Positions 409-5,298 of a stretch of DNA of 34,468 nt are shown piece after piece. Location of the stretch: positions 1 to 34,468 of IMG/VR virus record IMGVR_UViG_3300030107_003227, one strand, 5' to 3'. Below the pieces are notes generated by a model. It searched no databases. It saw only the letters and a list, made by a program, of their open reading frames with translations, and was not told the origin of the DNA. The DNA is from a virus. The position numbers and the translations under genes were made by a program. How positions within the stretch are numbered: the first letter of the stretch is position 1; each line of letters opens with the position of its first letter.

Positions 409-442
409 TATATTATCTTACTATTGTCGTATTTATTTTGTG
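409..442 (-). promoter_or_regulatory. Repeated promoter-like element P1
   Basis: On the minus strand this reads CACAA, 19 further bases, then AGATAATATA, with exactly 24 bases from the first C to AGAT. Six such elements exist in the module with the same spacing. P1 lies directly after the stop of the 443-652 gene and 20 bases before the start of the 158-388 gene. It does not match the TAnnTTTG -7 box of Bacteroidota housekeeping promoters, so a phage-specific or modified polymerase is possible. Confidence 0.7.
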
Positions 443-882: not shown

Positions 883-916
883 TATATTATCTTATAGTAA
901 TCGAATTTATTTTGTG
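883..916 (-). promoter_or_regulatory. Repeated promoter-like element P2
   Basis: Minus strand: CACAAAATAAATTCG, then AGATAATATA starting 24 bases after the first C. It lies between the 929-1183 gene and the 654-863 gene, 19 bases before the latter's ATG. Its first 14 bases (CACAAAATAAATNC) are almost identical to P1. Confidence 0.7.
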
Positions 917-1217: not shown

Positions 1218-1236
1218 GTGTGACATTAGGGTATTA
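1218..1236. promoter_or_regulatory. Copy 1 of a conserved intergenic motif (TGTGACAYTAGGGTRTTA)
   Basis: The plus strand has TGTGACATTAGGGTATTA. A second copy with 16 of 18 identical bases (TGTGACACTAGGGTGTTA) lies at 2712-2729, upstream of the first rightward gene. Both are intergenic and in the same orientation. The second can fold a six-pair stem with a TAGG loop; this one folds less well. A protein-binding site is one reading, but only two copies are seen. Confidence 0.35.
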
Positions 1237-1274
1237 CTCTCTTTATTTAACTACCAATTGTCACAGTTTATAAA

Positions 1275-1345
1275 AGGTTGAGGTGATAGTTGTGAGACTT
1301 GAACTCACTCCATTTACAGGGCCGCCTTCACTACCACCTCGACCT
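1275..1345 (-). ncRNA. tRNA-like / degenerate tRNA element
   Basis: On the minus strand this 71-base element has complementary ends. The first 16 bases (AGGTCGAGGTGGTAGT) pair with the last 16, with one C/A mismatch and one G-U pair. Inside lies GTGAG-TTCAAGT-CTCAC, a perfect 5-bp stem with a 7-base loop matching the universal tRNA T-arm (TTCRANY). A sequence like a tyrosine anticodon loop, CTGTAAA, sits between them, but its flanks do not pair and there is no room for a D-arm. It is therefore not a canonical tRNA. It could be a decayed tRNA, a tRNA mimic in the mRNA between the 1356-1586 and 929-1183 genes, or a processing signal. Confidence 0.45.
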
Positions 1346-1347
1346 GT

Positions 1348-1358
1348 CTAACTAACTA
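1348..1358 (-). other. Three-frame stop ending the 1356-1586 gene
   Basis: The minus strand reads TAGTTAGTTAG, giving stops in all three frames. The first TAG is the stop codon of the 1356-1586 gene, and the tRNA-like element begins two bases later. It is a TAG version of the TAACTAACTAA cassettes seen elsewhere in this module. Confidence 0.45.
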
Positions 1359-1586
1359 AATTAGTTCTTTATTTCTTAACACTGTTGGTATGTTATTAGT
1401 CGCAGTGTATGACTTATACTTTTCCCAACATGGTAGAGTAGTTAATTTTTCTTTCATAATTTCATACACTTTGTCATGATTATAAGTAATTTCATCACCT
1501 TTTTTGTTAGTAAATGTTATTACTTGATTTTTACCTACTAGACTCATTCTTACAACAAATCTTTTACTTTTTAATACATTTTCCAT
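1356..1586 (-). CDS. Duplicated small protein, copy B, 76 aa
   Basis: This product is a clear paralogue of the one at 2008-2232. Both share KRFV(V/I)R, SL(V/I)G, ITFT, KKG, TYNHD, VY, KYKSYT and TNNIPT in the same order. The family looks like a small beta-strand-rich domain followed by a helix. It has one cysteine (PCW), conserved in position with the paralogue's NCF. No known family is recognised. The start is supported by P3, 41 bases upstream, and by a leader with a three-frame stop shared with the paralogue. Its role is unknown. The preserved core after clear divergence suggests both copies are under selection. Confidence 0.75.
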   Translation of the reverse strand: MENVLKSKRFVVRMSLVGKNQVITFTNKKGDEITYNHDKVYEIMKEKLTTLPCWEKYKSYTATNNIPTVLRNKELI

Positions 1587-1601
1587 AATTTTTAGTTTAA
1601 T

Positions 1602-1612
1602 TTAGTTAGTTA
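1602..1612 (-). other. Three-frame stop cassette in the leader of the copy B gene
   Basis: The minus strand reads TAACTAACTAA between P3 and the ATG at 1586. It would end translation in any frame entering from upstream before the real start. The copy A leader has the identical 11-mer at 2244-2254. Confidence 0.5.
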
Positions 1613-1627
1613 TTATTTATTTACATT

Positions 1628-1661
1628 TATATTATCTTACTTACATCTAATTTATATTGTG
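1628..1661 (-). promoter_or_regulatory. Repeated promoter-like element P3
   Basis: Minus strand: CACAATATAAATTAG, then AGATAATATA starting 24 bases after the first C. It lies 41 bases upstream of the copy B gene, and its downstream leader matches that of P4 closely (ATAATAACTAACTAAA). Confidence 0.7.
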
Positions 1662-1724
1662 TAAAGTATATATTTTGTTTACTTGTTATTTTTAGTTTAG
1701 TAGTATTACACTACATCTCTGTGT

Positions 1725-1871
1725 CTATAATAATTCTATTGACATATTTAGTTCATCAAATAGTTTACCATATTCACTTTCATATACATTATCAAGTGTG
1801 TAAACTTCACTATTCACTGTCATTTCATAGATATCATTATCAGAATCTATTTTTAGAATTATTTCTTTCAT
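1725..1871 (-). CDS. Small acidic protein, 48 aa
   Basis: An ATG at 1871 opens a 48-codon frame ending in TAG at 1725-1727. The product begins MKEIILKIDSDNDIYEMTVN, contains VYTLDNVYESEYGKLFDEL and ends SIELL. It is acidic, likely two strands plus a helix, with no cysteine or membrane segment. It was recognised by position: its ATG is 22 bases downstream of promoter-like element P6, exactly as for its neighbours, and the gap between neighbouring genes would otherwise be large. A longer rightward frame over the same bases has low-complexity composition and no promoter. The 11-codon remnant at 2282-2317 appears to be a lost second copy. Function unknown. Confidence 0.65.
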   Translation of the reverse strand: MKEIILKIDSDNDIYEMTVNSEVYTLDNVYESEYGKLFDELNMSIELL

Positions 1872-1893
1872 ATTTATTATTTTTGGTTACATA

Positions 1894-1927
1894 TATATTA
1901 TCTGATGGTGTTCGAATTAAGTTTGTG
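1894..1927 (-). promoter_or_regulatory. Repeated promoter-like element P6
   Basis: Minus strand: CACAAACTTAATTCGA, then AGATAATATA starting 24 bases after the first C. It lies 22 bases before the 48-residue gene. Flanks on both sides resemble those of P5: ATATATGTAA on the downstream side, and GTGACTGG with GCTATACA (plus strand) on the upstream side. Confidence 0.7.
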
Positions 1928-1955
1928 ACTGGAGTGGGCGAGTAATTTGCTATAC

Positions 1956-2006
1956 ACTTCGTGCTATACACGAGTGCCTTTCGATACTTCGTGTTTCACA
2001 CTTCGT
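1956..2006. repeat. Short ACTTCGTG repeats with a hairpin
   Basis: The plus strand has ACTTCGTG at 1956 and 1986, and ACTTCGT at 2000. The first copy also forms a stem, TCGTG-CTATA-CACGA, extendable by three pairs around one bulged base. The cluster lies in the short gap after the stop of the 2008-2232 gene and before P6. It could help end the upstream transcript, but there is no U-tract. Confidence 0.4.
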
Positions 2007-2007
2007 T

Positions 2008-2232
2008 TTACCTACAGAATGTTGGTATGTTGTTTGTGTTTGTGTAAGACTTATACTTCTTGAAACAGTTCATAGACTCGAATCTATCTTTGTTACGAGT
2101 ATATACTTCGTCGTGATTGTAAGTTACTTCTTTACCTTTCTTAGTAGTGAATGTGATGATTGTGTTAGTTCCGATTAAAGACTTTCTAATTACAAATCTT
2201 TTTGTTGTGATGTTGTTAGTTTCTTTTTTCAT
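2008..2232 (-). CDS. Duplicated small protein, copy A, 74 aa
   Basis: Paralogue of the protein at 1356-1586. Residues from about 10 onward (TKRFVIRKSLIGTNTIITFT) align without gaps through TYNHDEVY to the end at NNIPTFCR. Copy A is more basic, has two cysteines, and its extreme N-terminus differs (MKKETNNITT). The start is supported by P4, 29 bases upstream, and by the shared leader with the three-frame stop. It is the first full-length gene of the leftward cluster. Family and function unknown; a DNA- or protein-binding role would be a guess. Confidence 0.75.
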   Translation of the reverse strand: MKKETNNITTKRFVIRKSLIGTNTIITFTTKKGKEVTYNHDEVYTRNKDRFESMNCFKKYKSYTNTNNIPTFCR

Positions 2233-2243
2233 TTTATTTAATT

Positions 2244-2254
2244 TTAGTTAGTTA
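2244..2254 (-). other. Three-frame stop cassette in the leader of the copy A gene
   Basis: The minus strand reads TAACTAACTAA between P4 and the ATG at 2232, identical to the cassette in the copy B leader at 1602-1612. Confidence 0.5.
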
Positions 2255-2261
2255 TTATATT

Positions 2262-2295
2262 TATATTATCTATTGTTATACTTATTTAGTTTGTG
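2262..2295 (-). promoter_or_regulatory. Repeated promoter-like element P4
   Basis: Minus strand: CACAAACTAAATAAG, then AGATAATATA starting 24 bases after the first C. It lies 29 bases before the copy A gene and overlaps the end of the 11-codon remnant at 2282-2317. Confidence 0.7.
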
Positions 2296-2317
2296 AGTCA
2301 TAAATATTTCTTTTCAT
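2282..2317 (-). pseudogene. 11-codon remnant of a duplicated small gene
   Basis: Downstream of P5 an ATG at 2317 opens only 11 codons (MKRNIYDSQTK) before TAA. Its first bases (ATGAAAAGAAATATT) resemble the start of the 48-residue gene at 1725-1871 (ATGAAAGAAATAATT), and both follow similar promoters (P5 and P6) with the same ATATATGTAA flank. By gene order this is where the partner gene of copy A should be. It is best read as the deletion-shortened twin of the 48-residue gene. A functional leader peptide cannot be excluded. Confidence 0.4.
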
Positions 2318-2329
2318 TTGACTTACATA

Positions 2330-2363
2330 TATAATATCTAGGTGTAGTCGAGTTAAGCTTGTG
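2330..2363 (-). promoter_or_regulatory. Repeated promoter-like element P5
   Basis: Minus strand: CACAAGCTTAACTCGA, then AGATATTATA starting 24 bases after the first C, one base off the AGATAATATA consensus. It is the outermost promoter of the leftward module, only 12 bases before the 11-codon remnant. It may now serve mainly copy A. Confidence 0.6.
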
Positions 2364-2390
2364 AGTGGCGGAGGATAAATGCTATACATC

Positions 2391-2405
2391 AGCTGCGCTG
2401 CAGCT
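2391..2405. repeat. Perfect hairpin 1
   Basis: AGCTGC-GCT-GCAGCT: a 6-bp perfect stem with a 3-base loop, followed one base later by a second hairpin. It lies upstream of P5 on the leftward side. Confidence 0.6.
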
Positions 2406-2406
2406 T

Positions 2407-2422
2407 ACTGACTAGCGTCAGT
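2407..2422. repeat. Perfect hairpin 2
   Basis: ACTGAC-TAGC-GTCAGT: a 6-bp perfect stem with a 4-base loop, directly after hairpin 1. No T-tract follows on either strand, so a simple intrinsic terminator is unlikely. A protein-binding site or structured-RNA function fits better. Confidence 0.6.
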
Positions 2423-2538
2423 GTGCCTCGCTTGTATGGTCAATGATGTACCAATCATATACATATAGTATCAAGACAGGATCTAGCTGAGGTCGTGAGT
2501 AGCAGTAGCAGTAGAGATAAGCAAGGTGTTACTACTAG

Positions 2539-3464: not shown

Positions 3465-3488
3465 TAAAATTTAATTAAATCTAAAAAC

Positions 3489-5057
3489 ATGGAATACAAT
3501 CAGCCTAGCGAGATTGTCAAAGACGTTAATTTTGGCGATATTGCAAAAAAAAAGGTAATTGCTGGTGTAGAAAAGCTAGCAAAAGCAGTAAAATCAACCT
3601 TAGGAGCTTCCGGTAAGTGTGTTATTTACGAAGATGCACGTGGAAACCCGGTCATAACAAAAGATGGTGTAACCGTAGCAGAAAGCGTAGTCTTATTTGA
3701 CCCGGTTGAGAATATGGGAGCGACCCTTATTAAAGAGGCTGCTAGAAACACAGTAAGAGAAGCAGGTGACGGTACTACTACAGCTACTGTTCTTGCTGAA
3801 TCTCTATTAAAAGAAGTAAATAGTAGTGATGCTGCTATTAGAAAAATTAAAAACGGGATAAAATCCGGTCTTACAAAGGTAAACGATTACTTAGATAAGA
3901 TTTCTGTCAAGATCGAGGGCGATATGCTGGAATCTGTTAGTTCAATTAGTTGTAATAATGATACAGAACTAGGAAAGATTATAGCAGAAGCTTATACTAA
4001 AGTAGGTAAAGACGGTGTGGTGTTAATGGAAGAGTCGCCAACTGAAGAAACATATGTTGAAGTTGTAGATGGTGTGCAAATAGACTCAGGACTCACATCA
4101 CCACATTTCGTTACTGACAAGGACAAGCAAATTTGTGAGCTTGATAACCCATTAGTATTAATAGTATCCTCAGAAATACCTAACATAAGAAAAATACAAA
4201 CAGTATTAGAACATGTTATAAAGAATAAACGTTCTTTGCTTATTGTTGCTCCAGTTGACCAGCAGGTTAAAGCTGCTCTTCTTATGAATAAGGTAAAAGG
4301 TAATATAAAAGTTAATATAGTTGACTTACCAGGATTTGGTCCTACTAAAAACGATACAGTTGCTGATTTAGCGTTTCTTGTAGGTGCAAAGGTTATAAAC
4401 GAACAGCTTGGTGATGATTTAGATCTTATAGACGTAGATTGTTTAGGCGAAGCTTATACAGCTATAACAGATGATAAGAACACCGTGTTAACTATAGATA
4501 CTCCAGAAGATGAAATGGAAGAAAGAATAAAGAGTATTAACAAAACTATAGATAAGTGGGAAAAAAACCCGTTTATACAAAAGAAACATAGACAAAGACT
4601 AGCAATGCTATCAGGTTCAGTAGGTATGGTAAAAGTAGGTGCTAATTCTAAAGTAGAATTAAAAGAAAAAAAAGATAGAGTTGAAGATGCTATTTACGCA
4701 ACTAAAGCCGCTTTAAAAGAAGGTATAGTGCCAGGAGGTGGTGTAGCGCTATTAAATGCATCTCAAAAAATTTCAACCGACTCCGTCGGTGAAGAGATAC
4801 TTCTCAACGCTATTAAAGCTCCTTTCTATACTGTACTTGAAAATGCTGGTATAACTTTGATAGATGGCACTGAAGATCATGAAGGTCACGGTATTGATGT
4901 AGTAACTGGCGAAAGAGTTGCAATGATATCAGCTGGTATCATTGATCCTGTACTTGTAACAAAGTCAGCGCTTAAAAACGCAGTGAGTGTTGTGACTACT
5001 ATAATATCTGCAGATTGTGTAATTTCAAATATGAGAATGAATGAAGGCGATCAATAG
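3489..5057 (+). CDS. groL: Phage-encoded GroEL-type chaperonin, 522 aa
   Basis: A full-length group I chaperonin that would form ATP-driven folding rings. Nucleotide-binding motifs are intact: TLGASG at 37-42, KDGVTVA with Asp59, GDGTTTAT at 93-100, VPGGGVALL with GGG at 416-418, and the catalytic-type Asp at about 400 (VEDAIYATKAA). Asp486 (IIDP) is also present. The apical segment DSGLTSPHF (199-207) keeps one Phe but replaces the two Tyr of the E. coli substrate site with Leu and His. The helix near residues 255-270 also differs, which suggests altered client or GroES binding. The C-terminus lacks the GGM tail and ends EGDQ. Its last 17 bases overlap groS. The gene order, groL before groS, is the reverse of bacterial operons. 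The likely client is a virion protein such as the capsid protein (inference). Confidence 0.95.
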   Translation: MEYNQPSEIVKDVNFGDIAKKKVIAGVEKLAKAVKSTLGASGKCVIYEDARGNPVITKDGVTVAESVVLFDPVENMGATLIKEAARNTVREAGDGTTTATVLAESLLKEVNSSDAAIRKIKNGIKSGLTKVNDYLDKISVKIEGDMLESVSSISCNNDTELGKIIAEAYTKVGKDGVVLMEESPTEETYVEVVDGVQIDSGLTSPHFVTDKDKQICELDNPLVLIVSSEIPNIRKIQTVLEHVIKNKRSLLIVAPVDQQVKAALLMNKVKGNIKVNIVDLPGFGPTKNDTVADLAFLVGAKVINEQLGDDLDLIDVDCLGEAYTAITDDKNTVLTIDTPEDEMEERIKSINKTIDKWEKNPFIQKKHRQRLAMLSGSVGMVKVGANSKVELKEKKDRVEDAIYATKAALKEGIVPGGGVALLNASQKISTDSVGEEILLNAIKAPFYTVLENAGITLIDGTEDHEGHGIDVVTGERVAMISAGIIDPVLVTKSALKNAVSVVTTIISADCVISNMRMNEGDQ

Positions 5058-5298
5058 ATATATAATAGTAGATAAAATAAAGACAGAGCCTAAAACGGTT
5101 GCTGGTCTTATAATGACAGATGATACCGATGTTGACAATAGGTATTTAAAAGCAAAAATAATATCGTGTGGTAATTTAGTTGAAGGATTAAAAGATGGTG
5201 ACACGATATATTACGATAAACATGCTGGACACGACATATCATGGAAAGATACTCTTTATAGAGTTATTCGTGATGGTGACGTTGTTCTAGTAGATTAA
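5041..5298 (+). CDS. groS: Phage-encoded GroES-type co-chaperonin, 85 aa
   Basis: A short co-chaperonin that would cap the phage or host GroEL ring. It starts MKAINRYIIVDKIKTEP. The mobile-loop hydrophobic tripeptide is present as AGLIM (residues 21-25) in place of GIVL. The barrel motif KDGDTIYYD (51-59) and the closing strand LYRVIRDGDVVLVD (72-85) match the fold. The usual roof hairpin looks shortened. It begins inside groL, overlapping by 17 bases in another frame, so translation is probably coupled. A second, larger GroES-like protein is encoded at 8189-8779. Confidence 0.88.
   Translation: MKAINRYIIVDKIKTEPKTVAGLIMTDDTDVDNRYLKAKIISCGNLVEGLKDGDTIYYDKHAGHDISWKDTLYRVIRDGDVVLVD

Follow-up and report, generated by a model that had tools for sequence, protein, structure and literature searches.

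The question raised by the start of this virus record is how a run of small leftward genes, among which stand repeated promoter-like elements and two related proteins, came to be arranged as it is. The window, by which is meant the whole stretch of 34,468 bases that was analyzed, is a virus record and probably a fragment. An earlier note explained the arrangement by one duplication of about 0.5 kb of a promoter-gene-promoter-gene unit, followed by deletion inside one copy of the small gene. The sequence features on which that note relied are largely real, but a single recent duplicated block with a decayed gene is not what the comparison with related phages supports. The order that it gave for the minus strand is correct and reads P6, a short ORF, P4, the 74-aa gene, P5, the 48-aa gene, P3, and the 76-aa gene. 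Here P6 denotes the outer promoter, at 2363, and P5 precedes the 48-aa gene; the note had the two names reversed.

The terminase encoded in the window is 65% identical to its counterpart in an uncultivated Manatee Spring podovirus and ∼46% to those of Flavobacterium elemo phages. A search of phage DNA gave no match. The phage appears to be Bacteroidota-type and podovirus-like, of the flavobacterium type. A phage-encoded GroEL at 3489-5057 adjoins a divergent junction, an arrangement also seen in MW202828. The groEL of the Manatee Spring phage, too, lies next to a divergent junction, beyond which small genes run towards the replication genes. Based on this layout, the leftward genes at 1-2400 of the window are most likely the start of the early region.

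Six copies of one promoter-like element of fixed spacing, with the core CACAA..T.AA...G-N9-AGATAWTATA, lie in the first 2.4 kb, all on the minus strand (0.03 expected in the window; 0 of 100 shuffles), and the element is absent from the remaining 32 kb. In the loci of relatives, the refined motif ttACAAAcTAAATACGA-N-GATAATATA has 638 sense matches versus nine antisense, and stands no more than 200 nt upstream in 172 of 206 genes of the family, here called F, to which the 74- and 76-aa genes belong. Nine of ten whole contigs of ∼65 kb carry four to nine copies on a single strand, nearly all within ∼10 kb around the F genes; a reversed-pattern control in the whole contigs gave no matches. A promoter matrix applied to the tested half of record MW202828 returned nothing above the matrix floor. 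P1-P6 have the marks of a conserved early-type promoter class that is repeated between the genes of a variable region, and both promoter activity and early timing are predicted from sequence (Table 1).

Table 1. Features of the leftward array and its surroundings in the window. The promoter-like copies begin at 2363, 2295, 1927, 1661, 916, and 442.
Feature	Coordinates	Strand	Basis
P6, outer promoter-like element	2330..2363	-	exact match to CACAANNTNAANNNGNNNNNNNNNAGATADTATA
11-codon ORF MKRNIYDSQTK, in spacer of tandem promoter pair	2282..2317	-	no significant similarity to 48-aa gene
P4, promoter-like element of 74-aa gene	2262..2295	-	motif match
TAACTAACTAA leader, stop codon in each frame, before 74-aa gene	2244..2254	-	word count
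74-aa gene (F74 type)	2008..2232	-	homologues in viral contigs; clade F74
Intergenic cassette after F74, two TGTATAGCA sites, leads into P5	1928..2007	-	61 nt 95% identical in L003, L084
P5, promoter-like element of 48-aa gene	1894..1927	-	motif match
48-aa gene (cluster 29), exchangeable slot gene	1725..1871	-	homologues in 8 other contigs
P3, promoter-like element of 76-aa gene	1628..1661	-	motif match
TAACTAACTAA leader before 76-aa gene	1602..1612	-	word count
76-aa gene (F76 type)	1356..1586	-	homologues; clade F76
Terminator-like hairpin after 76-aa gene, then T-rich stretch, with tRNA-like arm	1271..1345	-	z -2.24
Second inverted repeat GTGACA...TGTCAC	1220..1264	-	folding/repeat inspection
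P2, same promoter class, ahead of 69-aa gene	883..916	-	motif match
P1, same promoter class, ahead of 76-aa gene (158-388)	409..442	-	motif match

The 74- and 76-aa proteins are paralogues, as had been claimed, with 56% amino acid identity (E 2.9e-26). A tree of 208 F-family members from 138 contigs, the window included, places the two genes in separate deep clades of 90 and 118 rows; the alignment has ∼70 columns and leaves many forks unresolved, but the split between F74 and F76 is well supported (100/98). The window's two copies are not each other's closest relatives, each grouping with copies from other contigs. Both clades draw on the same contigs, and F74 precedes F76 in 39 of the 39 contigs with one of each. 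Deep clades that share contigs and keep a fixed order imply a doubling older than the phage group; judged from the tree, the duplication is ancient, and a local duplication of ∼0.5 kb in this lineage is not supported. Later, lineage-specific doublings of F genes exist, with up to four copies in L144, where four tandem F74-type copies at 3480-5191, with spacers of ∼274-317 nt, form a lineage-specific expansion.

F74 and F76 have no significant match in Pfam, PHROGs, PADLOC, or PDB, and a confident model of F76 (pLDDT 89.6) has no significant relative by Foldseek. The family has no convincing match among 50,697 phage records, and a search for similarity to defence systems found none. The contigs that carry the F-family genes of L164-L176 were assigned by binning to diverse bacteria and to one archaeon, and many are probably mis-binned phage contigs; L176 comes from a 188-kb contig in a Flavobacteriales bin.

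The leader that P4 and P3 were said to have in common is indeed present in both as TAACTAACTAA, which occurs four times in the window versus 0.21 expected, twice as the leader of an F gene. TAACTAA leaders precede 46 of 117 F74 and 30 of 89 F76 genes versus 28 of 343 other promoter-driven genes, and the F74/F76 duplication probably took the 5' leader along. Beyond the leader, the resemblance of P3 to P4 does not exceed that seen in other promoter pairs. The claimed similarity between the flanks of P5 and P6 is real but modest, with an alignment from TGTATAGC through ATATATGTAA (z 15) that no other non-overlapping promoter pair in the window surpasses; with only the 60 nt upstream, p is 0.008, uncorrected for the 15 pairs compared. 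Similarity between P6 and P4 was set aside as an artefact of overlapping stretches. One word common to the P5 and P6 flanks, TGTATAGCA, is frequent upstream of such promoters generally, with 100 sense versus 23 antisense occurrences within 120 nt upstream, and its copies in relatives cluster ahead of the early-type promoters. All five copies in the window, where 0.35 are expected, fall in the first 2.4 kb (17 and 721 on the plus strand; 1948, 1962, and 2380 on the minus strand). Since P3 and P4 are unremarkable apart from the leader, and since the genes beside them are exchangeable, as described below, the origin of F74 and F76 by gene doubling stands, but the descent of both halves from one duplicated unit does not.

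The place before F74, termed a slot here, was held to contain the decayed partner of the 48-aa gene. The start of the 11-codon ORF was said to resemble that of the 48-aa gene, but the 26-nt P6-P4 spacer scores 11 against that gene versus a shuffle mean of 10.3 (p=0.39), and 12 and 11 against two unrelated genes. With the spacer alignment at shuffle level, no remnant of a second small-gene copy is recognizable. The ORF is the tail of a 35-aa open frame that runs through P6, and its last codons lie within P4. The same tandem promoters occur in L096 with a spacer of near-equal length and similar sequence in which AAATAAATAG replaces AAATGAAAAG; there and in L014 the promoter pair is gene-less and its spacer is without that ATG. 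P4 and F74 are kept in L003, L103, L097, L101, and L100, which have different genes in the slot before F74, and the P4 core is 92-97% identical upstream of F74 in L003, L014, L103, L097, and L101. Close relatives have either a gene-less double promoter without the ATG or unrelated genes, which argues against a decayed gene, and no F74-F76 contig had cluster-29 genes in both slots. The best reading of the 11-codon ORF is as spacer between two promoters in tandem, not as a decayed gene, and the emptiness of this slot in the window, where P6 and P4 stand in tandem, is real. The stretch ahead of P6 is found again in L082, L018, and L011, where it stands in the F74-F76 slot. A snoRNA-like Rfam match over P6/P4 was sub-threshold and is attributed to chance.

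Homologues of the 48-aa gene have F74 on one side and F76 on the other, stand upstream of F74 (directly so in L021), or are flanked by two copies of F76. The occupant of the F74-F76 slot is cluster 29 in the window, L014, and L082; it is cluster 18 in L002, L003, and L004 and cluster 1 in L019 and L021, and clusters 31, 157, 93, and others take the place elsewhere. The flanking promoter cassettes are 70-90% identical in close relatives while the slot gene varies. The P5 cassette is 84-87% identical over ∼164 nt in L014, L003, and L084, with other genes behind it in L003 and L084; the P3 cassette keeps 88-94% identity over 93-99 nt in several relatives that have another slot gene before it; and the cassette that follows F74 in the window stands behind a cluster-29 gene in L011. 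Identity between the window and L003 is 87% in F74, 84% in the cassette, 64% in the slot, 83% in P3 and the leader, and 80% in F76, where slots with different gene clusters score ∼50-65% in alignments of this type. L076 and L077 have near-identical stretches that differ by the clean presence or absence of 190 nt, which comprise the cluster-29 homologue of the 48-aa gene together with the larger part of its promoter. By these comparisons, the 48-aa gene is one of many alternatives between F74 and F76.

The same cassette stands between different flanking genes in related phages. Among cassette pairs, 135 have the same upstream and a different downstream gene, 128 the reverse, and 134 have both genes the same; the clusters come from small ORF calls joined by single linkage, the contigs are not independent, and pairs do not equal events. 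In pairs with the same upstream and a different downstream gene, similarity ends most often 60-80 nt after the motif start, which is near the start codon or leader of the new gene, while outside the same-upstream pairs the ends are widely spread. In many different-downstream pairs similarity runs on past the cassette (median end +122), which places breakpoints outside it as well. Mean cassette conservation is 58% with different slot genes versus 54% with the slot gene shared, and hence the cassette is not singled out in that comparison. None of the within-contig cassette pairs passed the pair threshold.

The explanation that we consider probable is that single genes are swapped at promoter cassettes in the early region, which would be a strip of swappable small genes, most with their own copy of the early-type promoter. 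F74 and F76 would be fixed anchors derived from the ancient gene duplication, with the slots between them. Related phages that meet, for instance in co-infection, would undergo homologous recombination between their promoter cassettes and thereby exchange, insert, or remove one small gene at a time, such that cassettes persist and genes change; that recombination is the agent of the exchange is what we infer. The window would then represent a state in which the slot before F74 is empty and that between F74 and F76 holds the 48-aa gene.

Ordinary mosaicism, in which illegitimate recombination strikes anywhere and promoters are kept by selection for expression without being recombination sites, is a serious rival because breakpoints are not confined to cassettes and the counts are not independent, although we judge it rather unlikely. 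The many breakpoints outside cassettes fit it, as do the lack of a long similar cassette pair within one contig and the L076/L077 junction, which lies inside the promoter and has almost no shared end sequence, suggesting illegitimate deletion or insertion. It accounts less well for the ends of similarity at the leader or start codon in same-upstream pairs, and for the recurrence of the same cassette sequence in different slots of different phages. The duplication and decay proposed in the earlier note is improbable: paralogy, the common leader, and the P5/P6 flanks are compatible with it, L021 has a 48-aa gene homologue where the partner would have stood, and L076/L077 show that clean gain or loss of this gene is possible, but the doubling predates the phage group, the supposed remnant has no significant similarity and its spacer is kept without the ORF in L096, relatives carry unrelated genes in the slot, and cluster 29 fills both slots in no F74-F76 contig. 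Least credible is a dedicated gene-exchange system, integron-like in outcome, in which the TGTATAGCA flank and promoter would form a recognized recombination unit and the F proteins would take part or exert control, perhaps through binding to the F leader.

Single-gene swapping at promoter cassettes invites comparison with the promoter early stem-loop (PeSL) elements, mobile regulatory cassettes of T4-type phages (Arbiol et al. 2010, PMC2839356; Comeau et al. 2014, PMC4122927; as described in PMC4503421). In that account, as here, repeated early-promoter cassettes stand between the small genes of a variable region, different genes stand behind one cassette, and a role in gene shuffling is proposed (PMC4503421). 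In contrast with PeSL, the promoter sequence here is different, the phage is podovirus-like, and most promoters are without a conserved stem-loop, which is seen only after F76 and at the divergent junction. Folding of the flanks upstream of P6 (z -0.61) and P5 (z -1.08) is no stronger than that of shuffled sequence, and over 200 promoters the mean z is -0.65 versus -0.47 inside genes, with 17% versus 9% below -2. The array is not classed as PeSL since the joined stem-loop, one of the features that define PeSL, is lacking at P5 and P6 and generally.

Stem-loops occur at some places only, such as after F76, and hairpins followed by a promoter are found in L003, L018, and L021. Hairpins of the type that follows the 76-aa gene stand at the same place in eight of 11 loci inspected. 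The arm of the window's hairpin reads GTGAG-TTCAAGT-CTCAC followed by AACTATCACC, and is also present in L002; ARAGORN and Rfam found no tRNA in the hairpin, and the arm is possibly a collapsed tRNA inside a terminator. On the minus strand, 2690-2765 and 1220-1264 hold terminator-like inverted repeats of the form GTGACATTAGGGTGTTA...TAACACCCTAATGTCAC, a type also found after F76 in relatives.

The haloarchaeal myovirus HGTV-1 has a TATA-like box and an inverted repeat before most left-side ORFs (PMC3950731). As here, a regulatory motif is repeated before many ORFs on one side of the genome and a shuffling role has been suggested; unlike here, the virus belongs to another domain of life, and its different motif includes the inverted repeat (PMC3950731). 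In archaeal viruses, too, a single conserved regulatory sequence precedes many small early genes, for which anti-defence roles are predicted (PMC11065993). The sharing of a conserved regulatory sequence by many small genes is common to both, but the viruses and promoter differ, and in the present array no similarity to defence systems was found.

In T4-type phages, promoter cassettes have already been described as seams at which single genes are exchanged, and for one haloarchaeal virus the same has been suggested. If a large group of uncultivated podovirus-like phages has this architecture with another promoter and, for the most part, without a stem-loop, homology between promoters would seem to be enough by itself. 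The F family is a new conserved protein family that is absent from the sequenced phage isolates searched. The promoter motif provides a direct way to list the early small genes of the group, promising candidates for a part in host takeover or anti-defence; either role of their products is a guess, made by analogy with small early genes that share promoters in other viruses (PMC11065993).
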